From Alphaproteobacteria bacterium (GTDB lineage: Bacteria; Pseudomonadota; Alphaproteobacteria; Rhodobacterales; Rhodobacteraceae), in the NCBI GenBank assembly GCA_030427405.1, contig JAUHXK010000011.1:62001-126000 (forward strand): a DNA stretch of 64,000 nucleotides. Reading direction: 5' to 3'. The first letter of the stretch is position 1. Each line of letters begins with the position of its first letter. Shown here piece by piece: positions 1 through 15,479 of this stretch. Below the pieces are notes generated by a model. It saw only the letters and a list, made by a program, of their open reading frames with translations. It had not been told where the DNA came from and ran no database searches. Made by a program: the position numbers and the translations under genes.

Positions 1-1
1 C

Positions 2-1273
2 GTCTGGGAAAGCCGTCGTCTTTTGGCCGCGGGCGAGATCGACTATGACGAATTCATGAGCCGGGTGTGTTCCTCGGCGCCGTCGCTGGGTCACTGCAAC
101 ACGATGGGCACCGCAAGCACGATGAATGCCATGGCCGAAGCGCTTGGGATGAGCCTGACGGGCAACTCTGCCATTCCCGCCCCGTTTCGCGAACGCATGG
201 CGATGGCCTATGAGACCGGAAAGCGGATCGTGCAGATGGTGTATGACGATCTCAAACCGTCTGACATCATGACGCGCGAGGCGTTCGAGAACGCAATTGT
301 CGTGAACGCCGCAATCGGCGGGTCCACCAACGCTCCGCCGCATCTGCAGGCTGTTGCGCGTCATATCGGCGTCGAACTGAACGTTCGCGATTGGGAAGAG
401 ATCGGTTTTGACGTTCCGCTGATGGTCAACATGCAACCCGCTGGCGAATACCTGGGCGAAAGCTTCTTTCGCGCGGGGGGCGTGCCAGCCGTGATGGGTG
501 AACTCAGAAAGGCGGGCCGTCTGCACGATGGGGCGATGACCGCAACCGGCGACACAATGGGCGCGAACCTGGAGGGCTGGGAAAGCCAGGACCTGAATGT
601 CATAACGACCTACGATACGCCGCTGCGGGCCAATGCCGGGTTCAAAGTGCTGTCCGGCAACCTGTTTGACAGCGCGCTGATGAAAACCAGCGTGATTTCT
701 GACGATTTCAGGGCCCGCTTCCTGTCAGAACCCGGCAACGAAGGTGTTTTCGAGGCCAAGGCCGTCGTGTTCGAAGGCCCCGAAGATTACCATGACCGGA
801 TCAACGACGCCGATCTGAATATCGACGAACGCACCATCCTTTTCATTCGCGGCGTGGGCTGTGTCGGGTATCCCGGCTCTGCCGAAGTGGTGAACATGCA
901 GCCGCCAGACGCGATTATCCGTCAGGGTATCAATCATTTGCCGACGGTCGGGGACGGGCGGCAATCGGGCACCTCCGAAAGCCCCTCCATTCTGAATGCG
1001 AGCCCCGAATCCGTGGTGGGCGGCGGACTGGCGCATCTGCGAAATGGCGATATGGTTCGGCTGGACCTCAACAATTCGACCATGAACGCAATGGTCGAGG
1101 CCGACGAATGGCAGGCCCGCATCGACGCGTGGACCCCGCCCGAGATTGTCAGCCAAACCCCCTGGCAGGAAATCTACCGCCAGCATGTCGGGCAACTGGC
1201 CGATGGCGGATGCCTGGAATTGGCGACGGCCTATCAGAAAACGCGTAACGCATTGCCACGTGACAACCACTGA
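2..1273 (+). CDS. IlvD/Edd-family dehydratase, probably sugar-acid specific (5' end cut by window)
   Basis: The reading frame is open to the left edge, so the N-terminus lies outside the window; 423 residues are visible. The family uses an Fe-S cluster and Mg to dehydrate dihydroxy acids or aldonic acids to 2-keto-3-deoxy acids. Visible family blocks are [12 protein letters not shown] (cluster cysteine), [25 protein letters not shown] and GRQSGTS near the C-terminus. The GHCNTMGTA form of the cysteine block resembles sugar-acid dehydratases (arabonate/xylonate type) more than the biosynthetic IlvD enzyme. It is followed after 48 bp by an SDR dehydrogenase on the same strand, which fits aldonate catabolism. 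The substrate cannot be read from the sequence; family assignment is firm and the sugar-acid role is inferred. Confidence 0.85.
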
Positions 1274-1321
1274 TTTTTTGCGCGGTGGGTTTTGCCCGTT
1301 TGGCGCGCAGGGAGGAAAGCG

Positions 1322-2059
1322 ATGACCAAGAGCATAATAATCACCGGCGCCGGGCGCGGAGTTGGCAAGGCAACGGCCCTGGCGTTCCTGTCGGCGGGGT
1401 GGCGTGTCGGGTTGATCGGGCGCAACGCCGCGGCGCTGGAAGAGGTCGCCAATGGCAGGCCCGAGGCGCTGTCTTTGCCGTGCGACGTCACCGATAGCGC
1501 CGCAGTCGAGGCTGTGTTTGATCGCGCCATGGATGCTTGGGGACGGCTGGACGCGCTGTTCAACAATGCAGGCGTCACGCTGAAGGGCGCCCCAATCGAC
1601 GAACTCGACGTCGCGGCATGGCGCGAACTGATTGACATCAACGTGACAGGGTCGTTCATTTGTGCCCGCGCGGCCTTTGCCCGGATGCGGGGCCAGGACC
1701 CACAGGGCGGGCGGATCATCAACAACGGGTCGGTCTCGGCCTATGTGCCGCGCTGGGGTTCGGCGGCCTATACGACCTCGAAACACGCGATTACCGGGCT
1801 GACACGGACGATCAGCCTGGATGGCCGTCCGTTCAACATCGCCTGTGGCCAGATCGACATTGGCAACGCGCTGACCGATATGGCGCAATCGATGACGACG
1901 GGCATGCCGCAGGCAGATGGTTCAATCAAGGTCGAGCCGGTCATGGACGTGCAGCATGTGGCGGATTCAGTGCTGCATATGGCCACTTTGCCGCTTGAGG
2001 CAAATGTTCAGTTCATGACCGTGATGGCCACGAATATGCCCTATATAGGCCGGGGCTAG
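1322..2059 (+). CDS. SDR-family NAD(P)-dependent oxidoreductase
   Basis: A classical short-chain dehydrogenase of 245 residues. It has the Rossmann motif TGAGRGVGKAT at the N-terminus, the NNAG motif near residue 80, the active-site serine in NNGSVSAYVP and the catalytic YTTSK (Tyr-x-x-x-Lys). The ATG at 1322 is chosen because GGAGG lies a few bases upstream; an upstream in-frame extension to 1292 lacks family similarity. It follows the IlvD/Edd dehydratase closely and probably shares its transcript, so it may oxidise the sugar, the lactone precursor or the keto-deoxy product. SDR substrates cannot be predicted from motifs. Confidence 0.88.
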   Translation: MTKSIIITGAGRGVGKATALAFLSAGWRVGLIGRNAAALEEVANGRPEALSLPCDVTDSAAVEAVFDRAMDAWGRLDALFNNAGVTLKGAPIDELDVAAWRELIDINVTGSFICARAAFARMRGQDPQGGRIINNGSVSAYVPRWGSAAYTTSKHAITGLTRTISLDGRPFNIACGQIDIGNALTDMAQSMTTGMPQADGSIKVEPVMDVQHVADSVLHMATLPLEANVQFMTVMATNMPYIGRG

Positions 2060-2190
2060 GCTGGCAGATCAGACCGGCCCGCACGCTGCCTGATCAGGGT
2101 TGTTGTCGTCTTGGACTTTAAGCAGGGCTAAAGAACTTTTTAAGTATTTTGACTTGTCGCGCGCGCCCCCCGATGGTGGTCTAGCATCAG

Positions 2191-2212
2191 GCAGAGCCCG
2201 GTTGGGCTCTGC
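2191..2212 (+). other. Perfect 9-bp hairpin just upstream of the split transketolase
   Basis: GCAGAGCCC and GGGCTCTGC flank a GGTT tetraloop. The hairpin ends 24 bases before the proposed TTG start of the next gene and has no T-tract after it. It could be the terminator of the dehydratase/SDR transcript without a strong U-run, or a 5' leader structure of the transketolase operon. Confidence 0.45.
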
Positions 2213-2236
2213 GTCATGCCAGGGAGGGGGAGCGGT

Positions 2237-3094
2237 TTGTCAGACGGGATCGAAAATACCGGCGCGAATGTCAGCCTGCAGCGGCGGGCTTGGGCGATCC
2301 GCCGCAATGCGCTGCGCATGGGCGAGGTTCAGGGCCAGGGATACATCGGGCAGGCGCTGGGCGTTGCAGATGTCCTGGCCGTCAGCTTTTTTCACGCTTT
2401 GCGGTTTCGCCCGCAAGACCCGGAATGGGACGGGCGCGACCGGTTTTACCTTTCGATCGGGCATTATGCGATTGCCCTTTATGCGGCGCTGATCGAGGCG
2501 GGCGTGTTGCCCGAAGACGAGATTGAAACCTATGGGATGGATGACAGTCGCATGCCGATGTCGGGCATGGCGGCCTATACCCCCGGAATGGAAATCACCG
2601 GCGGCTCGCTTGGCCATGGTCTGGGCATCGCCGTTGGGGCCGGGCTGGGCCTGAAGCGCAAGGCGAACCCGGCCTTTGTCTATAACATGCTATCGGACGG
2701 GGAACTGGGCGAAGGGTCGACCTGGGAGGCGGTGATGTCAGCGGTCCAGTGGGAACTGGACAACCTGATCGCCATCGTGGACTTCAACAACCAGCAGGCC
2801 GACGGCCCAACGCGGGCGGCGCTGGCCACCGAACCGGGCACCGAAGCAGCCAAATGGGAGGCCTTTGGCTGGTTCGCGCAAGAGGTGGACGGCAACGATC
2901 TGCAGGCGCTGGTTCGGGCGTTTGATGCCGCGCGCGCACATCCCGGGCCGGTCCCCAGGGTGATCATATGCAATACGATGATGTGCAAGGGGGTGCCGTT
3001 TCTGGAAACCCGCGACAAGACGCATTTCATAAGAGTCGAAGCCGATGAATGGGCCAAGGCCCTGAACCATCTGGATGCAGAGGTGCCGCTATGA
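2237..3094 (+). CDS. Transketolase-like protein, N-terminal (thiamine diphosphate pyrimidine/diphosphate) subunit
   Basis: Encodes the N-terminal half of a transketolase as a separate 285-residue protein. Visible features are the histidine-containing GHYAIALYAAL region, the GGSLGHGLGIAVGAGL loop and the ThDP/Mg motif beginning SDGELGEGSTWE and ending VDFNNQQ. The first glycine of the usual GDG is replaced by serine. The TTG at 2237 is preferred because AGGGAGGGGG stands six bases upstream; an ATG at 2216 lies before that purine run. It overlaps the C-terminal subunit by four bases (ATGA), implying coupled translation and a heteromeric enzyme that moves two-carbon ketol units. Split transketolases occur in several sugar pathways (for example apulose-4-phosphate transketolase); the substrate here is unknown. 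Confidence 0.85.
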   Translation: MSDGIENTGANVSLQRRAWAIRRNALRMGEVQGQGYIGQALGVADVLAVSFFHALRFRPQDPEWDGRDRFYLSIGHYAIALYAALIEAGVLPEDEIETYGMDDSRMPMSGMAAYTPGMEITGGSLGHGLGIAVGAGLGLKRKANPAFVYNMLSDGELGEGSTWEAVMSAVQWELDNLIAIVDFNNQQADGPTRAALATEPGTEAAKWEAFGWFAQEVDGNDLQALVRAFDAARAHPGPVPRVIICNTMMCKGVPFLETRDKTHFIRVEADEWAKALNHLDAEVPL

Positions 3095-4128
3095 TCCCGT
3101 CGATGTCGCGCCGCAAGGGCAAGTACACGCCGCGCAAGGCACCGGACCACAAACTGGCGACCAGCGCCATGATCGCCTCGCTGGATGCCGAAGGGCGCAG
3201 CACGATCGACGCACCATTCGGGCACGCGCTGACCGATCTTGCCAAAAGGCGCGAGGATATCGTTGGCCTGTCCGCGGATTTGTCGAAATACACCGACCTG
3301 CATGTTTTTGCGAATGCACATCCAGACCGGTTCTACCAGATGGGTATGGCTGAAGCCTTGCTGATGTCCGCAGCGGCCGGGCTTGCCCGCGAAGGGTTCG
3401 TGCCCTTTGCTACCACTTACGCGGTATTTGCCTCGCGCAGGGCCTATGACTTCATCTGCATGGCGATTGCCGAGGAAAGCCTGCCGGTCAAGATATGCTG
3501 CGCCTTGCCCGGCCTGACGACGGGCTACGGGCCCAGCCACCAGGCGACCGAGGATCTTGCGATCATGCGCGGGATGCCGAACCTCACCGTCATCGACCCG
3601 TGTGACGCCACCGAGATTGCACAGGCCACGCAAGCCATCGCGGATACCCCGGGTCCGGTCTATATGCGCCTGCTGCGGGGCAAGGTGCCTGATGTGCTGG
3701 GGGAATACGGGTACAGGTTCGAACTGGGCAAAGCCAAGACCATCATTGACGGGTCGGATGTCCTTTTCATCTCGACGGGGTTCATGACCATGAGAACGCT
3801 GGATGCGGCTGCTGCGCTGGCGCGAGATAATGTCTCGTGCGGGGTCCTGCATGTGCCGACCATCAAGCCGCTGGATACCCAAACCGTTCTGGCCGAAGCG
3901 CAGAAAGGTGGTCGTCTCGTCGTCACCGCCGAAAACCACTCGGTCACCGGCGGGCTGGGTGAGGCCGTGGCGGCAGCGCTGATGCGATCCGGCGCTTTTG
4001 TGCCGTTTCGGCAGATCGGGTTGCCGGACGAGTTTTTGGACGCGGGCGCGTTGCCGACATTGCATGATCAGTACGGGTTGTCCGTCGACAGCATCGTTTC
4101 CCGCGTCAAGACCTGGTTGGAGGATTGA
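3091..4128 (+). CDS. Transketolase-like protein, C-terminal subunit
   Basis: A 345-residue partner of the preceding gene covering the PYR and C-terminal domains of transketolase. The catalytic glutamate block MGMAEALLMSAAAGLA near residue 88 is present, followed by the FATTYAVFASRRAYDFI segment that forms the cofactor pocket. The C-terminal lobe has TAENHSVTGGLGEAVA. The ATG at 3091 overlaps the TGA of the N-terminal subunit. The gene after it starts three bases past its stop, so it sits in a tight operon with two dehydrogenases. Function as a complete transketolase needs both subunits. Confidence 0.87.
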   Translation: MIPSMSRRKGKYTPRKAPDHKLATSAMIASLDAEGRSTIDAPFGHALTDLAKRREDIVGLSADLSKYTDLHVFANAHPDRFYQMGMAEALLMSAAAGLAREGFVPFATTYAVFASRRAYDFICMAIAEESLPVKICCALPGLTTGYGPSHQATEDLAIMRGMPNLTVIDPCDATEIAQATQAIADTPGPVYMRLLRGKVPDVLGEYGYRFELGKAKTIIDGSDVLFISTGFMTMRTLDAAAALARDNVSCGVLHVPTIKPLDTQTVLAEAQKGGRLVVTAENHSVTGGLGEAVAAALMRSGAFVPFRQIGLPDEFLDAGALPTLHDQYGLSVDSIVSRVKTWLED

Positions 4129-4130
4129 GC

Positions 4131-5057
4131 ATGTCGCGCGCGGCGATAATCGGACTGGGTGCGATGGGGCAGGGCATGGCGCGCAACATTCTTGCAGCCG
4201 GGATTGCATTGAAGGGGTTCGACCTGTCGCAATCGGCCCGCGCCCGCTTTGGGCAGGCCGGGGGTGCCGCGGCAGAAACAGCGGCCGAGGCGGCGGCCGG
4301 GTGCGATCTGTTGCTGGTCATGGTTGCGACGGCCGAACAGGCCCACGAGGCTTTGTTCGGTTCGGGCGCAGCGGCTGCTGCGCTGGCCTCTGATGCGGTG
4401 GTTCTGTTGTGTTCAACCGTTGCCCCCGCAAGCGCCCGAAACATCGCGACCCGCTTGCAGGATATGGGTCATCAAATGATCGACGCGCCGGTTTCGGGCG
4501 GGCAGGTCGGTGCGGATGCCGGGACGCTCACGGTGATGGCGTCCGGCCCAGAGGACGCGTTCCTGCGCGCCGACCCCCTGCTGGCGGCGGTGTCGGATAC
4601 TGTCTACCGGCTTGGCTCCGAACCCGGTCTGGGCGCCACCCACAAGGTCGTTCATCAACTGGCGGCTGGCGTTCACCTGGTTGCCGCTGCCGAGTTGATG
4701 GCGCTTGGGGTCAAGGCGGGGTGTGACGCACAGACCTTGTATGAAATCGTCAGTGGCGCGGCGGGCAACAGCTGGATGTTCAGCGACCGCGCCCCGCGCA
4801 TGATGCAGGCCGACCCCGAGGTTACATCGACCATCGACATTTTCATCAAGGATGTCGGGCTGGTATTGGAAGCAGGACAGGACGCAGGGGCACCGCTGCC
4901 AATGGCAGAGGCCGCATTCGCCGTTCTGCGCCAGGCGGGCGATATGGGGCTGGGGGCCCGTGACGACAGCGAAGTGGTCCGCGTCTATGAGGCCAAAACC
5001 GCCCGGCCCGTAAACGCACAGCCAAAGGACGAGGATACGACAAATGGGACTTCTTGA
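4131..5057 (+). CDS. NAD(P)-dependent 3-hydroxyacid dehydrogenase, L-threonate dehydrogenase (LtnD)-like
   Basis: A 308-residue beta-hydroxyacid dehydrogenase. The nucleotide motif GLGAMGQGMA starts around residue 8, the substrate motif APVSGGQVGADAGTLTVM lies near residue 118, and the catalytic lysine is in THKVVHQLAAGVH. The HQLxAGVHxxAAAELMAL stretch resembles LtnD-type L-threonate dehydrogenases more than valine-pathway 3-hydroxyisobutyrate dehydrogenase. The ATG at 4131 is used rather than an upstream TTG that overlaps the previous stop. It overlaps the following SDR gene by 14 bases. No OtnK/OtnC partners of the known threonate pathway are nearby, so the real substrate may be a different four- or five-carbon acid. 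Confidence 0.8.
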   Translation: MSRAAIIGLGAMGQGMARNILAAGIALKGFDLSQSARARFGQAGGAAAETAAEAAAGCDLLLVMVATAEQAHEALFGSGAAAAALASDAVVLLCSTVAPASARNIATRLQDMGHQMIDAPVSGGQVGADAGTLTVMASGPEDAFLRADPLLAAVSDTVYRLGSEPGLGATHKVVHQLAAGVHLVAAAELMALGVKAGCDAQTLYEIVSGAAGNSWMFSDRAPRMMQADPEVTSTIDIFIKDVGLVLEAGQDAGAPLPMAEAAFAVLRQAGDMGLGARDDSEVVRVYEAKTARPVNAQPKDEDTTNGTS

Positions 5058-5796
5058 GGGGCAAACAGCCGTTATTACCGGGGCGGCCAGCCCGCGCGGG
5101 CTGGGCCGCGCAACGGCAGAACTGTTCGCCCAGCACGGGTGCCGCGTGGCGATCCTGGATCTGGATGCACGCCAGGCCGAAGAGACCGCTGCCGAGATCG
5201 GCCCCGCGCATATTGGACTGGCTTGTGACGTGACGCGCAAACCCGATTGCGACAACGCGGTCGCTGCGGTGCTCGGGGCGTTTGGACAGGTCGATATCCT
5301 GGTCAATAACGCGGGCATCACGCAGCCGCTCAGGATCATGGACATCACGCATGAAAACTATGACGCGGTGCTGGATGTTAATCTGCTGGGGACGTTGAAC
5401 ATGAGCCAGGCCGTGATCCCCCATATGCGCGGCCGCAAAAGCGGCAAACTGGTCAACATGTCCTCGGTTTCGGCGCAGCGCGGCGGCGGGATTTTTGGCG
5501 GGCCGCATTATTCGGCGGCAAAGGCGGGCATTCTTGGGTTGACCAAGGCAATGGCGCGCGAGCTTGCACCTGATGGCATACGGTCAAACGCTATTTGCCC
5601 CGGTTTCATCGCGACGGACATAACCGCAGGAAAACTGACGCCCGAGATGAAAGCGGGGATCGTCGAGGGCATTCCGATGGGCCGGGCCGGCCGGGCCTCG
5701 GATGTGGCGGGTTGCGCCCTGTTTCTGGCGTCGGACTTGTCGGCCTATGTCACCGGGTCCGAGGTTGACGTGAATGGCGGGTCGTTGATTCACTGA
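5044..5796 (+). CDS. SDR-family oxidoreductase (FabG-like)
   Basis: A 250-residue classical short-chain dehydrogenase with TGAASPRGLGRAT for cofactor binding, NNAG near residue 88, the catalytic serine in NMSSVSAQ and HYSAAK as Tyr-x-x-x-Lys. The C-terminus has the usual YVTGSEVDVNGG segment. It starts inside the end of the LtnD-like gene, the last of four tightly packed genes from 2237. Within this catabolic set it could oxidise the C4 hydroxyl of a keto-deoxy sugar acid before hydrolytic cleavage, but that is inference from the neighbouring FAH hydrolase. Confidence 0.87.
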   Translation: MGLLEGQTAVITGAASPRGLGRATAELFAQHGCRVAILDLDARQAEETAAEIGPAHIGLACDVTRKPDCDNAVAAVLGAFGQVDILVNNAGITQPLRIMDITHENYDAVLDVNLLGTLNMSQAVIPHMRGRKSGKLVNMSSVSAQRGGGIFGGPHYSAAKAGILGLTKAMARELAPDGIRSNAICPGFIATDITAGKLTPEMKAGIVEGIPMGRAGRASDVAGCALFLASDLSAYVTGSEVDVNGGSLIH

Positions 5797-5816
5797 ATTC
5801 GTGGTATGCGCATCTT

Positions 5817-5894
5817 ATGATTAACGCGTCTCTTTTAGATCTGACCGGCAAGACAGCCCCGGTTGCCGGATGTCGGTGCGCCCCGATCACCTGA
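5817..5894 (+). pseudogene. Possible N-terminal remnant of an SDR gene
   Basis: A 25-codon frame begins MINASLLDLTGKTAPVAG. The LLDLTGKTAxVxG pattern is the usual opening of many SDR dehydrogenases (LFDLTGKTALVTG), but the conserved glycine-rich motif that should follow is absent and the frame ends at 5894. It sits directly after an intact SDR gene. It may be debris from a second SDR copy or chance similarity. Confidence 0.3.
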
Positions 5895-5930
5895 CAGGGG
5901 CGACAGGAACCATCTCCAAAGGACCCTCAC

Positions 5931-7031
5931 ATGCCCAAGATCAAGGATATCGGTGTCCGCCTGTTCAACATTCCGCTGGACGAGGTGCTTAGTGATGCCA
6001 AACATGGCGATCACACCTTTTTCCAGCTGGTGACCGCAACGGTGACGCTGGAGGACGGGTCTGAGGGGACCGGCTATACTTACACAGGCGGCAAGGGCGG
6101 GCACGCGATTGCGGCGATGATCGAACATGATCTCGTGCCATTCCTGATCGGCAAGGACGCGCGGGACGTCGAGGCGCTGTATGAAGCAATGGGGTGGCAT
6201 GTGCATTACGTGGCGCGCGGCGGCGTCGCGTCCTTTGCCATTTCGGCTGTCGATATCGCGCTGTGGGACCTGCGGTGCCGGGCGCTTGGGCAGCCGCTTT
6301 GGCAGGTGGCGGGCGGGGCGGGCGCGACCTGCAAGGCCTATGCTGGCGGGATCGACCTGAACTTTCCGCTGCCCAAATTGCTTGAGTCCATCCGGGGCTA
6401 TCTGGCGCGTGGTTTCAACGGCATCAAGATCAAGATCGGGCAACCGACGCTTGCGGAAGACGTCGAAAGAGTGCGGGCAGTGCGTGACCTTATCGGCCCC
6501 GATATCACCTTTATGGTGGATGCGAATTACGCGCTGAGCGTCGAACAGGCGATCCGGGCCGCGCAGGCATTTGCGCCCTATGACATCTGTTGGTTTGAAG
6601 AGCCGACAATCCCCGACGATTACAGGGGCTATGGCCGAATTGCCCGACACAGCGACATTCCCCTGGCGATGGGCGAGAACCTGCATACCATCCACGAATT
6701 CGAGATGGCGTTGCGGGACTCGCAACTGGGGTTCATCCAGCCTGATGCCTCGAATTGCGGTGGTATCACCGCGTGGTTGCAGGTGGCCGCACTGGCGCGC
6801 GAACATAATGTTCCGGTATGCAGCCACGGGATGCAGGAATTGCATGTCAGCCTGGTGGCCTCGCAACCGCATGGCGGGTGGCTCGAAGTGCATTCCTTTC
6901 CGATTGACCGCTATACCAAACGCCCCCTGGTCGTGCGCGACCACCTTGCCGTTGCACCCGATACACCGGGTGTCGGAGTGTCCTTTGACTGGGACGCGCT
7001 GCAGCGGGTGCATCTGGAAACACCCGGATAA
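5931..7031 (+). CDS. Mandelate racemase/muconate lactonizing (enolase superfamily) enzyme, probable sugar-acid dehydratase
   Basis: A 366-residue enolase-superfamily protein. It carries the KIKIG pair (Lys166/Lys168), the metal ligands in VDAN (Asp197), in WFEEP and in MGEN, then QPDASNCGG and the SHGMQ histidine. A lysine facing a His/Asp dyad is the mandelate racemase subgroup pattern, which includes galactarate, talarate, fuconate and related acid-sugar dehydratases. An N-terminal capping domain precedes the barrel. It stands downstream of SDR genes and near an FAH hydrolase and a TRAP transporter, consistent with a 2-keto-3-deoxy acid-forming dehydratase. AAAGGA precedes the start at a normal distance. 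The exact stereochemistry cannot be assigned. Confidence 0.85.
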
Positions 7032-7044
7032 AGACGCGAGGGGG

Positions 7045-8019
7045 TCAGGCGGGTTCGGGGGCAATATCCCTGATAGTCAGGCCATGCTGGGTCAAAAGCC
7101 GGGAAAGGGATTGGTCATGGTCTACGGCTTGTTCATGCTGCCAGTCCAGAAACAGGCGCACCGCCCGGCGTTTCAGGTGCCGGGTCGGGCACAGCGCCCA
7201 ATAGGCCGGAAACCGCAAAACCGGCAGGTCCGGCGTAACAGGGACCAGCCGCCCCGCTGTGACCTCGGGCAGGGCAAGTGCCAGCGTTTCCAGAACAATC
7301 CCAACGCCGTCCAACGCCAGTTGCAGCGCCATCGAAGACCTGTCCATCAGGATCGACTTGCGGTTGCTGCGCGTTGTTATGCCGTTTTCAAGCAACCATC
7401 TGTCCCATTGGCACAAGGCCCGTGCGCTGTCGATCAACCGCGCGGAATCAAGCAGTTCGGCCCCCGTTTCCTGGCCCGGCAGTCGCGACAAGTATTCGGG
7501 GCTGCACAGCGGCAGGACATGATCATGCAACACAGCCTGCGCATGGAAACCGCCCCAATGGTCGACCCCCTGACCGCTGCCGTAGCGAATATCAAGGTCC
7601 ATGACTTCGCGGTCAAAATCGGTGGGGTCAGGGGCAGCATCGATCCTGAGGTCCCAATCCGGGTGCCGCGCTATGAAATCATGTAAACGCGGGCCAAGCC
7701 ATCGGACGCCGAAACTGGGCGAGACCCGCAGGTTGAGCCGCCGGGATTCGCGTGTTTGCCCAAGATTGCCCTGCGCATCCCGCAGCATCCCCAACGAGGC
7801 CGAGGACGCCTGAAACAGCTGTTCGCCTTCAAGCGTCAGGCTCAGCCTGCGCCCCTCGCGCCGGAAAAGACGCACGCCCAGCGTCTGCTCCAGCAATTTG
7901 ATTTGCTGGCTGACCGCAGAGGGTGACACCGAAAGCTCTTCGGCCGCGCGTGTCACGGTGCCCCGCCGCGCCACGGTTTCGAAATGCAGGTAAGCATTGA
8001 GGTTCAGCGGGCGGGCCAT
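7045..8019 (-). CDS. LysR-family transcriptional regulator (GcvA-like)
   Basis: A 324-residue LysR regulator. The N-terminal winged helix-turn-helix contains RRGTVTRAAEELSVSPSAVS and the linker LGVRLFRREGRRLSLT; the remainder is a periplasmic-binding-like effector domain. The start is placed at the ATG ending at 8019 (MARPLNLNAY), since the longer frame enters the FAH gene. Only 16 bases separate it from the FAH stop, so it is probably co-transcribed with FAH and GntR on the minus strand. It converges with the enolase-superfamily gene and may sense the substrate or a pathway intermediate. Confidence 0.88.
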   Translation of the reverse strand: MARPLNLNAYLHFETVARRGTVTRAAEELSVSPSAVSQQIKLLEQTLGVRLFRREGRRLSLTLEGEQLFQASSASLGMLRDAQGNLGQTRESRRLNLRVSPSFGVRWLGPRLHDFIARHPDWDLRIDAAPDPTDFDREVMDLDIRYGSGQGVDHWGGFHAQAVLHDHVLPLCSPEYLSRLPGQETGAELLDSARLIDSARALCQWDRWLLENGITTRSNRKSILMDRSSMALQLALDGVGIVLETLALALPEVTAGRLVPVTPDLPVLRFPAYWALCPTRHLKRRAVRLFLDWQHEQAVDHDQSLSRLLTQHGLTIRDIAPEPA

Positions 8020-8035
8020 CGATACGACCTTTTGT

Positions 8036-8875
8036 TCAGCTGGCAGCCACCGCAGTTTGTTTCTGCGACCCCAACCCCACGACCTCAAGCTCGATCTCGT
8101 CGCCGGGGTTCAGAAATCGCTGCGGCGTCGTGCCCAGGCCAACACCCGAAGGCGTGCCGGTGGCGATCACATCGCCTGGCATCAGCTTCATGAAGCGGCT
8201 CATGTAGGAAACGATTTGGGCAACCGAAAAGATCATGTCGTCAGTATTCGAATCCTGAACCACCTCGCCGTTGATCGAAAGCCACAGGCGCAGGTTCTGC
8301 GGGTCGGGCACCTCGTCCGCCGTCACAAGCCAGGGGCCTGTGGGGCCGAATGTGGGGGCCGATTTTCCCTTGATCCACTGGCCGCCCATCTCGGCCTGAA
8401 AGGCGCGTTCGGAAACATCGTTGATCGTGCAATACCCGGCGACACAGCCAAGGGCCTCGGCTTCTGAGACGTAAAGTGTCTCTTTGCCTATTACCACGCC
8501 CAGTTCGACCTCCCAATCGGTCTTGGCCGAGTTGCGCGGGATCTCGACGGCGTCGAACGGACCGCTCAGCGACGATGTGGCCTTGGAAAACAGGATTGGT
8601 TCCGCAGGCGGGGTCGCCCCTGTTTCGGCGGCATGTTTGGCGTAATTCAGGCCAACGCAAAAGAAGTTCGGAACCGAGGCAAGACAGGCACCGATCCGGC
8701 CCGGGTTTTCGACGACCGGCAGGCTGTCGATGTCGATTGCGCGCAATTGTTCGATGCGCTCCAGCGACACGCCCCGCCCTTCGAAATCCGAACCGGACAA
8801 GGCCCGGACGTTGCCGTCGGAATCAAGAATGCCGGGCTTTTCTGCGCCAGCGGGACCATATCTGAGTAACTTCAT
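8036..8875 (-). CDS. Fumarylacetoacetate hydrolase (FAH) family protein, possible 2,4-diketo-3-deoxy-acid hydrolase
   Basis: A 279-residue protein of the FAH/isomerase superfamily. It shows FCVGLNYAKHAAETG, the metal-binding acidic motif DWEVELGVVIG and the GTPSGVGLG segment near the C-terminus. The family cleaves C-C bonds of beta-diketo acids, or acts as ureidoglycolate lyase, oxaloacetate decarboxylase or keto-deoxy-acid hydrolase. With an enolase-superfamily dehydratase and SDR dehydrogenases alongside, it fits the diketo-hydrolase route known for L-fuconate and L-rhamnonate, ending in pyruvate plus a small acid. That assignment is contextual. It lies two bases after the GntR stop in the same minus-strand operon. 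Confidence 0.83.
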   Translation of the reverse strand: MKLLRYGPAGAEKPGILDSDGNVRALSGSDFEGRGVSLERIEQLRAIDIDSLPVVENPGRIGACLASVPNFFCVGLNYAKHAAETGATPPAEPILFSKATSSLSGPFDAVEIPRNSAKTDWEVELGVVIGKETLYVSEAEALGCVAGYCTINDVSERAFQAEMGGQWIKGKSAPTFGPTGPWLVTADEVPDPQNLRLWLSINGEVVQDSNTDDMIFSVAQIVSYMSRFMKLMPGDVIATGTPSGVGLGTTPQRFLNPGDEIELEVVGLGSQKQTAVAAS

Positions 8876-8877
8876 GT

Positions 8878-9561
8878 CTATACCGTTTTGTTGTCATTGG
8901 GGTGTGCCGCGGCCAGAGCCTCGGCTTCGATCACCTCGCGGATATCGTCTGCCAGGTGCCACAGGTGGTTTTCGATTGCATCGCGCACCGCTTTGGGGTC
9001 ACGCGCCCGCAGCCCGTCCACGATCCGGCTGTGTTCGGCGACAAGACGTTCGCGATTGCGCCGCTGTCTGGCCGCGATATAGCGTGCGCGCCAAAGCTTT
9101 TGCAGGAAACTGCAATGGGTCTGCGCCAGGGCCGCGTTGCGGGACGCTTCGGCAATAGCGGTGTGAAATGACATGTCGATTTCGAACATATCCAGCGGAT
9201 CAGTCGTGTCGAATTCGCGCGCCATGACGTCGACGATATTGGCGATATGGTCAATTTCCGCGTCCGAGGCGTTTTGACAGGCCAGTTCCGCCGACAGTTT
9301 TTCCAGGGCGATGAGAACCTGCGCCTGATCCGAAACTTCCTTGTAGCTTGGCTGCGCGACGATCGGGCTGCGCGACGGGCGCAACTGCACCAGACCTTCC
9401 TTGGCCAGGACGCGAATGGCTTCGCGCATCGGCGTGCGGCTGACACCCATTTCCGCCGCGTTGTCGCGTTCCTTTATCGAAGTTCCCGGCGGCAGCTTGC
9501 CCCGCAAGATGTCCCGCCGGATCTGGGTGGCAATTTGTTCGGCCAGTATTTGTTCGGTCAT
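8878..9561 (-). CDS. GntR-family (FadR/FCD) transcriptional regulator
   Basis: A 227-residue regulator with an N-terminal GntR winged helix (AEQIATQIRRDILRGKLPPG, MGVSRTPMREAIRVL) and a helical FCD ligand-binding domain. The FCD metal ligands are suggested by the FHTAIAEA and AIENHLWHL segments. The ATG at 9561 is preferred to a TTG at 9642 because the domain begins there and the TTG abuts the operator. It is divergent from the TRAP operon, and the region between holds two TGGTATACCA palindromes. It therefore probably represses its own gft operon (GntR, FAH, LysR) and the TRAP genes until a pathway acid is bound. Confidence 0.88.
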   Translation of the reverse strand: MTEQILAEQIATQIRRDILRGKLPPGTSIKERDNAAEMGVSRTPMREAIRVLAKEGLVQLRPSRSPIVAQPSYKEVSDQAQVLIALEKLSAELACQNASDAEIDHIANIVDVMAREFDTTDPLDMFEIDMSFHTAIAEASRNAALAQTHCSFLQKLWRARYIAARQRRNRERLVAEHSRIVDGLRARDPKAVRDAIENHLWHLADDIREVIEAEALAAAHPNDNKTV

Positions 9562-9643
9562 GGGCGGGGGCTTTCCAGGGTGAGCAGGGATGTCCTTGGC
9601 GATAGACTCTTCGGTTTTTTGGCGCAACAGGCACTTATTCAAC

Positions 9644-9657
9644 TTTGGTATACCAAA
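9644..9657. promoter_or_regulatory. GntR operator 1 (14-bp perfect palindrome)
   Basis: TTTGGTATACCAAA is a perfect palindrome upstream of the GntR gene. Its core TGGTATACCA is identical to a second palindrome centred 55 bp away. FadR-subfamily GntR proteins typically bind TGGTNNACCA-like sites, so this is the likely autoregulatory operator. Confidence 0.8.
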
Positions 9658-9698
9658 ACTTGTTGCCAGTCACTTTGAATCTCGCTAGCGTTTTTCTC

Positions 9699-9712
9699 GA
9701 TGGTATACCATC
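9699..9712. promoter_or_regulatory. GntR operator 2 (14-bp perfect palindrome)
   Basis: GATGGTATACCATC shares the TGGTATACCA core with operator 1 and lies 71 bases before the dctP start codon, where a repressor would block the TRAP promoter. The 55-bp centre-to-centre spacing is close to five helical turns, which would allow the two dimers to sit on one DNA face. Confidence 0.8.
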
Positions 9713-9783
9713 TGAATGGCGCTCGGGAGGAATTGCGCCAGCAAACCGGTGGCCCAAGCAGGTCGCCCTGGGAGGAGAATAAT

Positions 9784-10797
9784 ATGAACCTGAAAACACT
9801 TTTCGTGACGGTTGGTGCAACCGCCATGCTGGCCGCAGCTGCGTCGGCTGATCCGGTTACCTTGCGGGTACAGACGCACTATGCGACCGAACACCCGACC
9901 GGCAAACAGCTTGCCATCTGGGCCGATGATGTTCAGACCATGTCGGGCGGCGATATCACGATCGAGATGTTCTACTCGTCTTCGGTTGTCGCAACGACCG
10001 AAACCTTTGACGCGGCGATCAACGGGATCGTGGATTGCGACGCCACCGGTGGTGCGTACCAAACCGGCAAAAACCCCGCCTTCCAGTTCGTTGGCGACAT
10101 CATGGGCGGCTATGAGACCCCGTGGCAGCAATATTCGTGGCTGTATTACGGTGATGGCTATGATGCGGCGCAAGAGCTGTACAATGCGCAGAACATGCAA
10201 CTTGTCGGCTGGGCCATCTATGGCCAGGAATCGCTGTCATCCTCGGCGCCGATTGCCGGTCTTGAGGATCTGAAAGGCTGGAAGTTCCGGTCCCCTCCGG
10301 GCATGGAAACCGAGATCTTCGAACAGCTGGGCGCTTCGCCCATCGTGATGGATTTCACCGAGATCTTTACCGCGCTTGAAACCGGCATCATCGACGGTGC
10401 AGACGCATCGGGCCTGTATAACAACGTGGGCCTGGGTCTTTATGACATCGTCAAGCACGCGACATATCCCGGTTTCCACTCGATGCCGTCGGATCACCTG
10501 GCCTGTAACCTGGATGTCTGGAACGGCTTGACGGACCAACAGCGCCGGATCATCGACACCGCCTGGCAAAAGCTGGCCTTCCAGATCGCCCTGTCGAACG
10601 GCAAGAACAACTCGGCCGCCGCTTCGGAACTGGCAGCTGCTGGTGTGACCTTGCATGAATGGTCGCCCGAAGACCGCGCCGCCTTCCGCGCGGCCGCGCA
10701 GGCGACCTGGGAAGACTGGGGCACCCGTTCGCCCGAGGCCGGTTCGATCCTTGCAAGCCACAAGGAGTACATGAAGCAGCTTGGTCTGATCGACTGA
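9784..10797 (+). CDS. dctP: TRAP transporter substrate-binding protein (DctP family)
   Basis: A 337-residue periplasmic solute receptor. The N-terminus MNLKTLFVTVGATAMLAAA ends in an ASA signal-peptidase I site. The mature part is DctP-like, with the LKGWKFRSPPGMETEIFEQLGAS region around the ligand-binding arginine and the TALETGIIDGADASGLYNNV segment. ATG 9784 has GGAGGAG upstream; an earlier in-frame ATG at 9700 lies inside the operator. It heads the P, Q, M transporter operon and probably imports an organic acid used by the surrounding catabolic genes. Its binding pocket resembles carboxylate-binding DctPs, but the ligand is not determined. Confidence 0.92.
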   Translation: MNLKTLFVTVGATAMLAAAASADPVTLRVQTHYATEHPTGKQLAIWADDVQTMSGGDITIEMFYSSSVVATTETFDAAINGIVDCDATGGAYQTGKNPAFQFVGDIMGGYETPWQQYSWLYYGDGYDAAQELYNAQNMQLVGWAIYGQESLSSSAPIAGLEDLKGWKFRSPPGMETEIFEQLGASPIVMDFTEIFTALETGIIDGADASGLYNNVGLGLYDIVKHATYPGFHSMPSDHLACNLDVWNGLTDQQRRIIDTAWQKLAFQIALSNGKNNSAAASELAAAGVTLHEWSPEDRAAFRAAAQATWEDWGTRSPEAGSILASHKEYMKQLGLID

Positions 10798-10907: not shown

Positions 10908-11714
10908 ATGGAACAGGACAGTGTCTGGCTAGGGGGCCTCAGGCAACCCGTACGGCTTTTGATGCTGGCATCAACGGGGGCGTTGGCGCTGCTATATTCG
11001 TGGCTGGTCATCAGCGCGATGATTTCGGAAGACGCGATTGGCATGCATGAAATGATCCGCCCGACCGGCCGACCACTTGTCTGGGCGACACTGACGGCCT
11101 TTGGCGCATCAATCCTGTTTTCGTCGCTTTACCTGTCGGATTTCCGCGGTGCCATCGAGATCGAGCCACACGGTTTCTTCGACATCCTGTCTTTGATCAC
11201 CTCGCGCATGGCGATGATCCTGACGGCGCTTATCGTGATCGTCATGTTCTACGAGGTGGTGTCGCGCTATGTCTTTTCGCGGCCCACGCTGTGGGCCAAT
11301 GAACTCAGCCTGTGGATAGCGGCCTTTGTCTTTCTGTTTGCGGGTCAATACGCAATGCAGCAGCGCAGCCATATCCGCATCTACGTCATCTATGACATCA
11401 TGCCCCGGTGGATGCAAAAGACCGCAGACGTCCTGTCGGTTCTGCTGATCGTAGGGTTTACCTTTGCGCTGGTCTGGGGAAACTACGCCGACGCCCAACG
11501 CAGGTTCCTGCGTCTTGAAACCTTTGGCACCGCGTGGGACCCGCCAATCCCCGGCATCGTCAAGCCGGTGATATTGCTGATTATCATCCTTGTCACATTA
11601 CAGGCCGTTTCCAACCTGATCGCTGATTGGAACAAGAAGCCTGAACATCACTCTCCGCTCGATGAGATCGACGAGACGGAAATCGAAAACATCAAAAAGA
11701 CCCTTGGAGAGTGA
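10908..11714 (+). CDS. dctQ: TRAP transporter small permease (DctQ), with extended N-terminus
   Basis: A 268-residue membrane protein. The C-terminal two thirds match DctQ, with about four transmembrane segments and the FYEVVSRYVFSRPTLWANE signature near residue 105. The first 80 residues add about two further hydrophobic segments (around residues 18-38 and 58-75), making it longer than the usual 160-220 residue DctQ. The acidic tail ends DEIDETEIENIKKTLGE. GGGAGG precedes ATG 10908. The stop is one base before the DctM start, so both permeases are translated together. Confidence 0.9.
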   Translation: MEQDSVWLGGLRQPVRLLMLASTGALALLYSWLVISAMISEDAIGMHEMIRPTGRPLVWATLTAFGASILFSSLYLSDFRGAIEIEPHGFFDILSLITSRMAMILTALIVIVMFYEVVSRYVFSRPTLWANELSLWIAAFVFLFAGQYAMQQRSHIRIYVIYDIMPRWMQKTADVLSVLLIVGFTFALVWGNYADAQRRFLRLETFGTAWDPPIPGIVKPVILLIIILVTLQAVSNLIADWNKKPEHHSPLDEIDETEIENIKKTLGE

Positions 11715-11715
11715 G

Positions 11716-13341
11716 ATGGAGTTCCTTGAACTGTTTTCCTGGATGAAGGTCGACGATATCGCGACCCTGTCCATCCTGCTGCTTCTTGGCATGTTCGCCC
11801 TTCTGGCCATCGGCATGCCGCTTGGCTTTGCCTCGGCCTTTCTTGCCGTGGCAGTCATCATCATGAAATTCGGCCCCGAGATGGCCTTTGGCCGCTTCGG
11901 CAGCGGGCCCCTGTCGGTGCTGGCGCAGGCGGTTTATCGGCAGATGACGAATTACGTGCTGATATCTGTGCCGTTGTTCATCTTCATGGCCTCGCTGCTG
12001 GAAAGATCGGGCATTGCGCGCGACATGTACAACTCGTTGAACAAATGGCTCAGCCGCACTCGTGGCGGGATTGCCATTGTCACCTCGATCATGGCTGTGA
12101 TCATGGCGGCGATGTCCGGGATCATCGGCGGCGAAGTGGTGCTGTTGGGCCTGATTGCCTTGCCGCAGATGCTGCGCCTTGGGTACAATCAGAACCTGGC
12201 CATCGGTACCATTTGCGCCAGCGGGTCGCTTGGCACGATGATCCCGCCCTCGATTGTTCTGATCTTTTACGGGCTGGTGACCGAAACCTCGATCAAGGCG
12301 CTGTTCACCGCGTCCTTCCTGCCCGGCTTCATGCTGGCTTCGTTCTTCATTCTCTATATCGTTATCCGCACCAACATGAACCCGTCGCTTGCGCCCTTGC
12401 CCGAAGAGGACCCGGACGCGCCGAAGGGCAAGGAAAAGTTCCTGATGTTCGTGGGTTTCCTGTCGCGCTTTGGCTTGTGGGCGCTGGGCGTTCTGATCCT
12501 GCGCAACCTGTTCTTCACCTTCACCGGGCAGAACACCGTGCAGGAAGGGGTCGACCCGATTGCCCTGGGTATGGTCTCTGATCTGCCCTGGCTGATCGGC
12601 GCGATGGTCCTGGCGGGTGTTCTTGTCTTCCTGATCGGGAAGGAACGGGTGAATACCGGCTGGGAAATGGGCAAGGGCCTGATCGCGCCCATCATCGTTA
12701 TCGGCGTTGTATTGGGCTCGATCTACATGGGGATAACGGGCATCACCGAAGCCGCCGGAATGGGCGTCGTGGCGGTGTTTACCATCGGGTTGATCCGGCG
12801 CGAGATGACCTTTGAGATCGTGTGGGACAGCCTGATGCGGACGCTGAAATCCACCGGAACGATCATCTGGGTCACCATCGGCGCCGCGGCGCTTGCGGCG
12901 GCTTATACGCTGGCAGGCGGGCCGACCTATGTGGCCAACATGATCGTTGCGGCAGAACTGCCGACGATGGGCATCATTCTGGTGATGATGCTGATTTTCC
13001 TGATCATGGGCATGTTCATGGACTGGGTCGGTATCGTGCTGTTGATCATGCCGGTCTTCCTTCCGATCGTGCTGAAGCTGCCGGTGCAGGAGATCGGCAT
13101 ATTCGGAGAGCTCAATCCGCGCCACGTCGCGATTTGGTTCGGCGTGGTGTTCTGTATGAACATGCAGGTCAGCTTCCTCAGCCCGCCATTCGGGCCGGCG
13201 GCGTTCTATCTCAAGTCGGTAGCCCCGCCCCATATCTCGCTGACCGCGATCTTCCGGGGGTTCCTGCCGTTCATCGTGTTGCAGTTGCTTGCGCTGAGCG
13301 TTCTGCTGATCTGGCCGCCGATTATTTCCATCTTCCTCTGA
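11716..13341 (+). CDS. dctM: TRAP transporter large permease (DctM)
   Basis: A 541-residue multi-spanning permease of the DctM family, with the GASGSLGTMIPPSIVLIFYGL-type signature seen as ICASGSLGTMIPPSIVL near residue 178. It is longer than the common 425-residue form. The extra part is a charged loop (EEDPDAPKGKEKF) plus additional hydrophobic segments around residues 250-340, as in the long DctM variants seen in Rhodobacteraceae. ATG 11716 is one base beyond the DctQ stop. It couples Na+ flux to uptake of the ligand presented by DctP. Confidence 0.92.
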   Translation: MEFLELFSWMKVDDIATLSILLLLGMFALLAIGMPLGFASAFLAVAVIIMKFGPEMAFGRFGSGPLSVLAQAVYRQMTNYVLISVPLFIFMASLLERSGIARDMYNSLNKWLSRTRGGIAIVTSIMAVIMAAMSGIIGGEVVLLGLIALPQMLRLGYNQNLAIGTICASGSLGTMIPPSIVLIFYGLVTETSIKALFTASFLPGFMLASFFILYIVIRTNMNPSLAPLPEEDPDAPKGKEKFLMFVGFLSRFGLWALGVLILRNLFFTFTGQNTVQEGVDPIALGMVSDLPWLIGAMVLAGVLVFLIGKERVNTGWEMGKGLIAPIIVIGVVLGSIYMGITGITEAAGMGVVAVFTIGLIRREMTFEIVWDSLMRTLKSTGTIIWVTIGAAALAAAYTLAGGPTYVANMIVAAELPTMGIILVMMLIFLIMGMFMDWVGIVLLIMPVFLPIVLKLPVQEIGIFGELNPRHVAIWFGVVFCMNMQVSFLSPPFGPAAFYLKSVAPPHISLTAIFRGFLPFIVLQLLALSVLLIWPPIISIFL

Positions 13342-13487: not shown

Positions 13488-14531
13488 ATGAGGGCACAGG
13501 TGCCTATTGCGGTCATTGGGGGCGGCAGCATCGGGGTGCGACACGCGACCCAGGCGATGGGCAACAAGGCGGTACACCTGACCGCAGTGGTCGAGCCTGA
13601 TGCCAACCGCCGGGCTGAACTGCGCGCGCTTGGGGCCCCGGCGGTGGCTGGGATGGAAGATGTGCCCGCGTCGACCCGGGCCGCTGTTGTGGCGACCCCG
13701 ACCACAGCGCATTTTGCCTGCGCCCAAGCCGCAATCGACATGGGGTGGGCGGTTCTGGTCGAGAAACCGCTGACCCATTCGCTGAACGAGGCCGCGCTTT
13801 TGTGTGACACGGCCGAACAGAACGACGTTCCGCTGTTCACCGGCCACCACAGACGTTGCCACCCGACTATTATCGAGGCGCGCGCCATGCTTCCCCGGAT
13901 CGGAGATCTTGTAGGCCTGAACGGAGTGTGGGCGTTGCGCAAGCATGATACCTATTTCGACACGGCGTGGCGACGGCAGCAGGGCGCCGGGCCGGTCATG
14001 ACCAACCTGAGCCACGAGATCGACCTTTTGCGGTTCCTTGCTGGAGAGATCACCGAGGTTTCGGCTCTGACCTCAAACGCCCGCAGGGGGTTGCCGGTCG
14101 AAGATACCGCGGCGATTTCATTTCGGTTTGCATGCGGCGCTTTGGGAACGTTCCTGATTTCCGACGCAGGCGCTTCGCCCTGGGCGTTCGAGGCCGCGAC
14201 CGGCGAGAACCCGGCAATCGCGGCGTCAGGCCAGGACACGATGCAGGCGATAGGCACGCGCGGGGCAATATCCTGCCCTTCGATGACAATGTGGTCGGGG
14301 GATGGAACCGGTGCGGTCGACTGGCGCGCACCCCTGCGCGCAACACCGGGCCCGCAGGCACCAGTGGTCGATCCGATCAATGAACAACTTACGCGCTTTG
14401 CGCGTGCCGTCGCTGGCGAAAGCGAGCCGTTGCTGGCAACCGGCAAGGATGGCATGGCGACGCTTGCGGTCACGCAGGCGGTTTTGACATCCGCCAGCAG
14501 CGGTCGCGTCGAACAGGTGCAGGTCGCATGA
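13488..14531 (+). CDS. Gfo/Idh/MocA-family oxidoreductase
   Basis: A 347-residue NAD(P)-dependent oxidoreductase. It has the Rossmann motif VIGGGSIGVRH at the N-terminus, ATPTTAHF and the catalytic-lysine motif VEKPL near residue 90, then a C-terminal alpha/beta domain with the histidine of NLSHEIDLLRF. Family members oxidise sugars, inositols or their acids. It lies on the same strand as the TRAP operon but behind a hairpin. It is followed after 54 bp by a second hydroxyacid dehydrogenase, so the two probably act in sequence on the imported compound. The substrate is not assignable. Confidence 0.87.
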   Translation: MRAQVPIAVIGGGSIGVRHATQAMGNKAVHLTAVVEPDANRRAELRALGAPAVAGMEDVPASTRAAVVATPTTAHFACAQAAIDMGWAVLVEKPLTHSLNEAALLCDTAEQNDVPLFTGHHRRCHPTIIEARAMLPRIGDLVGLNGVWALRKHDTYFDTAWRRQQGAGPVMTNLSHEIDLLRFLAGEITEVSALTSNARRGLPVEDTAAISFRFACGALGTFLISDAGASPWAFEAATGENPAIAASGQDTMQAIGTRGAISCPSMTMWSGDGTGAVDWRAPLRATPGPQAPVVDPINEQLTRFARAVAGESEPLLATGKDGMATLAVTQAVLTSASSGRVEQVQVA

Positions 14532-14585
14532 TGCGCGCGGGTCTTGCCCGATTGAATGACTTGAAACCAGAAAAGGGGTGACGCG

Positions 14586-15479
14586 ATGGACCGTCCCACA
14601 ATTGGATTTATCGGTTTGGGCCTGATGGGCCGGGCCATGGTGGAATGCCTGCAAAAGGCGGAATACCCGGTTATCGTGCTTGGAAACCGAGACCGCACCG
14701 GTGTCGACGAGGCTGTGTCGCGCGGCGGGCACGAGGCCACAAGCGCGCGATCCCTGACCGAAGAGTGCGACATTGTCATGCTGTGTGTTGGCACCTCTGA
14801 TCAGGTCGAAAGCCGTATCTACGGCGATGACGGGATACTGGCGGGGGTCCGTGACGGGCAGGTCGTTATCGACTTTGGCACGTCGCTGCCGGCGTCGACC
14901 CAGAAAATCGGCGCCGATCTGGCGGGCAAGGGGGGCGTTTATCTTGATGCGCCGCTGGGCCGGACGCCGGCACATGCAAAGGACGGGTTGCTCAACATCA
15001 TGTGTGCCGGTGATGCGGATGCCTATCACAAAGTAAAACCGGTTCTTGATGCGCTGGGCGAGAATGTTTTCCACCTGGGCAAGCTGGGCAACGGCCACAC
15101 GATCAAGCTGATCAACAACTTTTTTGGCATGACAACCGTTTGCGCGATGTCCGAGGCGTTTGCCATTGCTGACGCGGCCGGTATCGAACGGGACGCGCTG
15201 TATGGCGTTATGGCCGCCGGGCCGAACTTTTCGCCCATGATCGAATTCGTTCGCAACTATGCGGTCGAGGGCAATATCGACCTGTTGTTCTCGGTCGCCA
15301 ACGGGTCAAAGGATGTCGGCTATTACCAGCAGATGACGCGCGACCTGGGCTTGAATAGCCGCATGTCGGGATCAGCCGACGCCACCCTGCGCGAGGCGCG
15401 GGATACGGGTGACGGTGGGCTGATGGTGCCGCAGATGGTGGACTGGCTGTCCGAGCATCTGGACAAAAAACCGCAATGA
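14586..15479 (+). CDS. NAD(P)-dependent 3-hydroxyacid dehydrogenase (HIBADH family)
   Basis: A 297-residue beta-hydroxyacid dehydrogenase with GFIGLGLMGRAMV at the N-terminus, the substrate motif DAPLGRTPAHAKDGLL in place of the common APVSGG, and the catalytic lysine in GNGHTIKLINNFFG. The altered substrate motif separates it from the LtnD-like paralogue at 4131, so the two are not redundant copies. GGGG at 14575 serves as a ribosome site for ATG 14586. Likely products are tartronate-semialdehyde-type or 3-oxo acids, but no assignment can be made from the sequence. Confidence 0.87.
   Translation: MDRPTIGFIGLGLMGRAMVECLQKAEYPVIVLGNRDRTGVDEAVSRGGHEATSARSLTEECDIVMLCVGTSDQVESRIYGDDGILAGVRDGQVVIDFGTSLPASTQKIGADLAGKGGVYLDAPLGRTPAHAKDGLLNIMCAGDADAYHKVKPVLDALGENVFHLGKLGNGHTIKLINNFFGMTTVCAMSEAFAIADAAGIERDALYGVMAAGPNFSPMIEFVRNYAVEGNIDLLFSVANGSKDVGYYQQMTRDLGLNSRMSGSADATLREARDTGDGGLMVPQMVDWLSEHLDKKPQ

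Follow-up and report, generated by a model that had tools for sequence, protein, structure and literature searches.

Sites of the TGGT-NN-ACCA type, made up of TKGT/ACMA boxes with a 2-nt centre, have been described for regulators of the FadR subfamily, as have divergons in which such a regulator is divergent to its target and two sites lie at a constant distance that is not scaled to the length of the gap (PMC4494728, in the part available). UxuR has a palindrome of this type and is associated with sugar-acid genes (same part of PMC4494728). DgoR, a GntR/FadR-family repressor of a sugar-acid operon with D-galactonate as its known effector, has two closely spaced inverted repeats with a 3-nt core over its promoter (PMC12288454, in part). 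Atu1419, a tetrameric FCD regulator of the VanR group that belongs to a hydroxycinnamic-acid pathway, has 10-bp palindromes with the core ATGTATACAT over promoter boxes, 190 bp apart (PMC7797058, in part).

We analysed a window of 64 kb (contig C2:62001-126000 of a 3,621,471-base genome in 20 contigs) that contains two palindromes in the gap between gntR, which encodes a GntR/FCD regulator, and a TRAP-transporter operon, dctPQM. The layout agrees with the constant-distance divergons in its divergent regulator, its two sites and its unscaled distance, but here the pair is off-centre, with the distance to dctP kept and the gntR leader varying. The palindrome type and the sugar-acid genes recall UxuR, but core, spacing and target genes differ, and the gap regulator reaches only 34.7 bits against the NCBIfam equivalog model of UxuR (cut-off 442). 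Predicted sugar-acid repression through two repeats is shared with DgoR, and 10-bp palindromes over putative promoter boxes are shared with Atu1419; DgoR is set apart by its 3-nt core, close repeats and known effector, and Atu1419 by its core, its 190-bp distance, its tetramer and its pathway. LldR, which we take to be an FCD regulator, presumably also has operators on both sides of a promoter, and presumably differs in its wider operator spacing and in its link to lactate. Looping was suggested for LldR at E. coli lldPRD and, in the part of that source available, was unseen in a lacUV5 test.

The gntP-uxuA gap of E. coli K-12 was considered as a possible UxuR site with the same core, and rejected: it carries TGGTCAACCA and TGGTTAACCA instead (L134, positions 1855 and 1961; 106 bp apart), which are built from boxes of the same type and are presumably bound by UxuR. 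Literature searches, which ran outside RegPrecise and supplementary files and included the query TTGGTATACCAA, yielded no paper that we recognised as dealing with this regulon, and TGGTATACCA together with GntR gave no literature match. For Rhodobacteraceae bins a GntR-family UxuR has been predicted, though paired with a glucuronate ABC transporter (PMC5507952, in part).

Predicted operator pair between gntR and dctP

Operators B and A (Table 1) have the core TGGTATACCA in common, at 9646-9655 and 9701-9710. Reading the sequence bears out the initial annotation, which had described two perfect 14-bp palindromes with an identical 10-bp core 55 bp apart (centre to centre); its further statement that this spacing is near an integral number of turns does not hold, as 55 bp is 5.24 turns at 10.5 bp per turn. 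The core occurs twice in the window, at B and A only, versus 0.01 occurrences expected, and none of 100 shuffles of the window contained two. TGGT-AT-ACCA has the form of a TKGT/ACMA box (an A/T-rich palindrome with 2-3 nt between GT and AC), in keeping with the earlier claim that FadR-subfamily regulators bind such sites (PMC4494728, in part). That B and A are operators of the adjacent GntR/FCD regulator, and part of a cluster-wide regulon, is a well-supported prediction from sequence. An ATG at 9700, inside operator A, begins a 365-aa frame that runs into dctP; the start at 9784, which is preceded by GGGAGGAG, is likelier.

Table 1. Predicted operators, putative promoter elements and genes in the window
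Feature	Position	Strand	Remarks
Operator B, TTTGGTATACCAAA	9644..9657	.	gntR-proximal; perfect 14-bp palindrome, read from sequence
Operator A, GATGGTATACCATC	9699..9712	.	dctP-proximal; perfect 14-bp palindrome, read from sequence
Putative dctP -35, TTGCCA	9663..9668	+	same columns TTGATT in 30/45 pairs
Putative dctP -10, TAGCGT	9686..9691	+	17 nt from -35; TAGCGT in 19/45 pairs
Putative gntR -35, GTGACT	9668..9673	-	same columns TCGACA in 34/45 pairs; one base common with dctP -35
Putative gntR -10, TATACC or TACCAA	9645..9652	-	inside operator B; 15 or 17 nt from gntR -35
GntR/FCD regulator gene (gntR)	8878..9561	-	Pfam PF00392 and PF07729, above cut-off
FAH-family hydrolase	8036..8875	-	Pfam PF01557; 2 nt after gntR
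LysR-type regulator	7045..8007	-	28 nt past the FAH gene, given the start chosen here
TRAP solute-binding protein DctP	9784..10797	+	Pfam PF03480
TRAP small permease DctQ	10908..11714	+	Pfam PF04290
TRAP large permease DctM	11716..13341	+	Pfam PF06808, searched from 11722
Gfo/Idh/MocA-type dehydrogenase and 3-hydroxyisobutyrate-dehydrogenase-like gene	13488..15479	+	possibly in the dctPQM operon
IlvD-like dehydratase (5' part outside the window), SDR, split transketolase, L-threonate-dehydrogenase-like, SDR and MR/MLE-like genes	1..7031	+	presumably co-transcribed

The initial annotation had called the neighbour of the gap a GntR/FCD regulator, and both domains score above their Pfam cut-offs: an N-terminal GntR winged helix-turn-helix (PF00392, 59 bits, cut-off 27) and a C-terminal FCD domain (PF07729, 91.1 bits, cut-off 24.3). 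The protein is below the cut-off of every one of the 20 NCBIfam models it matched; scores against phnR_burk (92.6 bits, cut-off 271.5), LldR (75, cut-off 311), NanR (69, cut-off 260) and ExuR (41.5, cut-off 396) are all under. Among 81 regulator proteins, D129, H133 and H177 are kept in every one and H199 in 80. Some FCD domains have a metal site of one Asp or Asn and three His. These residues are likely its ligands here, judging from the VanR-group metal site of three His and an Asn or Asp (PMC7797058, in part). R32, R42 and R46 are invariant in the 81 proteins, and residue 44 is Pro in all of them, which we count against the operator assignment; Pro at this position (our numbering) is described as avoiding G/C in the TKGT box (PMC4494728, in part).

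The FAH-family hydrolase is under the cut-off of the 2,4-didehydro-3-deoxy-L-rhamnonate hydrolase model (366.5 bits, cut-off 500). The best PDB relatives of DctP are TRAP binding proteins with unstated ligand and ketoacid- or lactate-binding proteins.

A predicted sugar-acid gene cluster

The whole genome contains TGGTATACCA five times (C2 52419, 59512, 61412, 71646 and 71701), and its reversed control word twice. All five sites fall inside 19.3 kb (52,419-71,710), for which the chance is about 4e-9 with five random points in 3.62 Mb. The three sites left of the window lie in the gap between an aminotransferase and a 2-hydroxyacid dehydrogenase gene, between an L-idonate-5-dehydrogenase-like gene and a gluconate-5-dehydrogenase-like SDR (an IdnD/IdnO-like pair), and before IlvD. 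The last of these, 589 bp left of the window, is followed after 80 bp by the start of the IlvD-type dehydratase and heads the gene string that enters the window at its left edge. Predicted operators cover four promoter regions of the cluster, reaching beyond the two operons of the gap.

The cluster further holds KDG-kinase-like, DapA-like, GlcD-like and D-erythronate-dehydrogenase genes. Among ten cluster proteins an equivalog cut-off is passed only by the D-erythronate dehydrogenase (387.5 versus 325 bits), and subfamily cut-offs are passed by an SDR and by the IlvD fragment. This gene content points to catabolism of aldonates or related sugar acids. The transketolase at 2216-4128, within the predicted regulon, is split into two overlapping frames, and many of the loci from the best 80 of 363 relatives also have the two halves close to gntR.

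Occurrence of the sites in related bacteria

In our family sample of 295 genomes, a search with the regulator gave a relative in 68 at E up to 1e-30; identity is 50% or more in 34, the window's own included (E up to 1.3e-60), and these we took as orthologue-bearing. All 34 orthologue-bearing genomes have at least two sites (range 2-12, mean 5.8, median 5), and the other 261 have 0.85 on average. The reversed control word shows no difference (1.74 versus 1.64). At the threshold of E 1e-30 the regulator is absent from G043, which is the only further member of the window's genus that was sampled. Within a set of 29 orthologue loci from this sample (L022-L050), an exact site is upstream of gntR in 24 and absent from L031, L036, L042, L043 and L047.

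The sites might belong to a different regulator that recognizes a TGGT-NN-ACCA word, such as one of the 15 GntR-type paralogues or the adjacent LysR. The genome does have 16 GntR-type matches, the gap's regulator included, and of the 227 genomes in which no relative reaches E 1e-30, 34 still have at least two sites, so another regulator may share the word. However, the motif is missing from all 15 paralogue loci over a flank of about 1.5 kb in each direction, and the number of sites tracks the presence of the gap regulator's orthologue. Also, where gntR is located elsewhere, a site usually heads the gene string to which gntR belongs (7 of 11 such loci among the best 80 of 363 relatives). We regard a different regulator as highly improbable, and retain the GntR/FCD protein as the predicted ligand of both sites.

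A second set consists of the loci of the best 80 of 363 relatives, mostly with Rhodobacteraceae titles; some of these genomes are probably shared with the sample of 295. An exact site lies at most 400 bp upstream of gntR in 69 of these best 80 loci, and two sites in 45. Within those 400 bp, TGGTATACCA occurs 114 times across the best 80 of 363, and the next commonest 10-bp palindromes occur six times each, runs of N left aside. In 68 of the 80, gntR is divergent to an adjacent dctP. The initial annotation had set a scan of orthologous loci beforehand as its refutation test, and the core is present in every one of these divergons: 68 of 68 have at least one exact site, an exact pair spaced 54-60 bp is found in 44, and a pair at 50-62 bp in 58 when up to two mismatches are allowed. 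At L063 a site is present with no dctP there. The loci are kin by descent, such that the 44 exact pairs form 24 clusters at 75% spacer identity.

No site is found near gntR in 11 of the best 80 of 363 loci. In seven of these (L057, L058, L060, L084, L124, L093 and L100), gntR lies downstream, on the same strand, of site-headed IlvD or AT-2HADH genes, with one more frame intervening before gntR in L100. L078, where no site was found, has 118 N upstream of gntR, and L109 has only 1.9 kb of upstream sequence. L101 and L130 contain a regulator relative and no site across their 20 kb. Extra operator sites were seen in L100 (17246 and 17280) and L109 (9872); by eye, the frames on either side resemble genes for a transport binding protein and an aldehyde dehydrogenase.

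Outside the gntR gap, the best 80 of 363 loci contain 57 sites. A cluster homologue (at least 50% identity) starts within 450 bp of 41 of them when the full-length IlvD is the query, and of 33 when the IlvD query is limited to the window-edge fragment. The remaining 16 sites all have, on one side or both, an open frame of more than 150 aa whose start is no further than 450 bp away. Several of these frames look by eye like sugar-acid or transport genes, a weak reading, since DNA of this kind often contains long frames by chance.

Across the class, the exact paired pattern (gap 40-70) occurs in one of 385 genomes, the window's own, with five of the 385 in the window's family; the pair is thus no general element of the class. 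The regulon is found mainly in the window's family, and is not strictly confined to one family, since L080, titled Roseibium aggregatum, has an exact pair. The locus is also present in two MAGs titled Oceanospirillaceae (L064 and L065), which encode DctP proteins 82% and 84% identical to that of the window; either transfer or mis-binning would explain this. Salipiger mucosus (L106) has tandem dctP genes; an exact pair spaced 57 bp belongs to the distal copy, and the gntR-adjacent copy has B alone.

Spacing and putative promoters

We aligned the spacers of 45 pairs, from 44 relatives and the window; dctP starts were picked by a script that scored start codons and ribosome sites. Leaving out one pair at 23 bp, the B-A distance is independent of gap length (slope 0.011, r 0.21, p 0.17, n=45). 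The A-dctP distance is also near constant (slope 0.065, p 0.25, n=45), and the B-gntR leader absorbs the variation in gap length (slope 0.92, n=45). From these two slopes, the pair does not sit mid-gap with both distances growing.

The spacer block holds 34.3 bits when aligned on B, versus 12.1 bits when aligned on A. The TTG of the putative dctP -35 is in column, in the B register, in 44 of 45 pairs, and the TA of the putative -10 is in column in 37 and off by one base in the other eight. The spacer thus varies in length mainly past the putative -10, on the side of A, whose core lies 8-14 nt beyond that box. We read the block as two putative divergent promoters that overlap by about 11 bp. 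A sigma-70 consensus scan gave no promoter in 9560-9800, the putative dctP -10 matches TATAAT at three of six positions, and the window's own -35 columns have diverged from the consensus of the relatives.

The initial annotation had suggested looping through integral helical spacing, in which regulators at A and B would touch and lock the spacer into a loop. Two identical cores at near-constant spacing favour such an arrangement, and looping has been proposed between the palindromes of tetrameric Atu1419 (PMC7797058, in part). Against this, the spacing is 5.24 turns here and 5.1-5.7 turns (54-60 bp) in the 44 exact pairs among the best 80 of 363 loci, a phase range of over half a turn, which makes looping unlikely. 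A loop of 55 bp would also be very tight. Distances in these loci are 54 bp (2 loci), 55 (11), 56 (14), 57 (11), 58 (5), 60 (1) and 23 (1), and we found no conserved helical phasing between the sites over this spread. Moreover, A is lacking, even with two mismatches allowed, from 8 of 69 divergons (the window's included), and the promoter-like block explains the near-constant spacing at least as well. We therefore consider looping very unlikely, and prefer overlapping promoters bracketed by the operators.

Alternatively, the regulator might bind at B to activate dctP and at the same time block its own promoter, and A would serve as a brake. With the dctP start assumed here, the centre of B lies about 47 bp ahead of it, a kind of position from which FadR-type regulators are able to activate, and the dctP -35 columns hold their distance to B in 44 of the 45 aligned pairs. 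However, a gntR promoter under B would require this fixed distance equally, and the location of A, at the start region, is that of a repressor. Activation appears unlikely to us, and repression from both sites is the reading that we develop below.

Inequality of the two predicted operators

The flanks of the two operators differ: A has GA..TC in 38 of 45 aligned pairs, versus 2 of 60 sites elsewhere, and B has TT..AA in 37 of 45. Of 23 loci with a single exact site, taken from the best 80 of 363, 13 have a one-mismatch partner at 54-56 bp; at random positions in the same loci, at most one mismatch was found in 25 of 4600 trials. In 12 of the 13, the partner is CGGTATACCA replacing B. This recurrent one-base variant is found in L069, L072, L074-L077, L079, L089, L090, L097, L104 and L117, whose titles include Sulfitobacter, Pseudosulfitobacter and Yoonia. 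The partner in L083 has two mismatches, and L126 is the locus with the 23-bp pair.

B is present within two mismatches in 67 of 69 divergons (68 and the window's own; L126 set aside). A B-type site with no A within two mismatches occurs in L068, L092, L095, L106, L113, L125, L128 and L133, and L065 has A and no B. With B kept this widely and A missing from eight divergons, A looks dispensable. In two of the eight A-less loci (L068 and L095) the place of A still reads GATGG....CCATC, with a changed centre.

A possible, if doubtful, extension is that the gap is one inherited switch module, with adjoining -35 boxes in overlapping promoters, a primary B held in register, and an auxiliary A whose conserved flank (GATGG...CCATC) sets a different affinity or start-site context. 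Importer and regulator might then be derepressed at different inducer levels.

Proposed regulation

What computation shows is where the sites lie and that they are conserved, which genes make up the target set, and that the geometry is nearly fixed. In the reading that we consider probable, B and A are operators of the adjacent GntR/FCD regulator that bracket overlapping divergent promoters, as part of a cluster-wide repression of sugar-acid genes. The protein is most likely an auto-repressing sugar-acid repressor, with B as the primary operator and A as an auxiliary block; its binding and repression, like the promoters and the ligand, are what we infer. One of the two promoters between the operators would serve dctPQM and the other gntR-FAH. 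Because B covers the putative gntR -10 and abuts the putative dctP -35, a dimer bound there would close the two promoters together. Transporter initiation would be blocked further from A, which lies at the putative dctP start region. The same regulator would occupy the three further TGGTATACCA sites of the cluster and so hold the sugar-acid pathway off, until a sugar acid or pathway intermediate binds the presumably metal-containing FCD domain and causes release.

Implications

The gap looks like an ordinary but well-conserved sugar-acid switch with a layout common to many related bacteria. Its site type and constant-distance divergons are already known, and this regulon is a further case, which leaves the prevailing view of how such regulators work unchanged. 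The relatives offer a natural series, with A missing in some and B altered in others, for probing what a second operator contributes. A GntR/FCD regulator that had no name becomes a testable regulon: its operator word hardly varies, its target promoters can be listed, and the cluster is predicted to handle a sugar acid.
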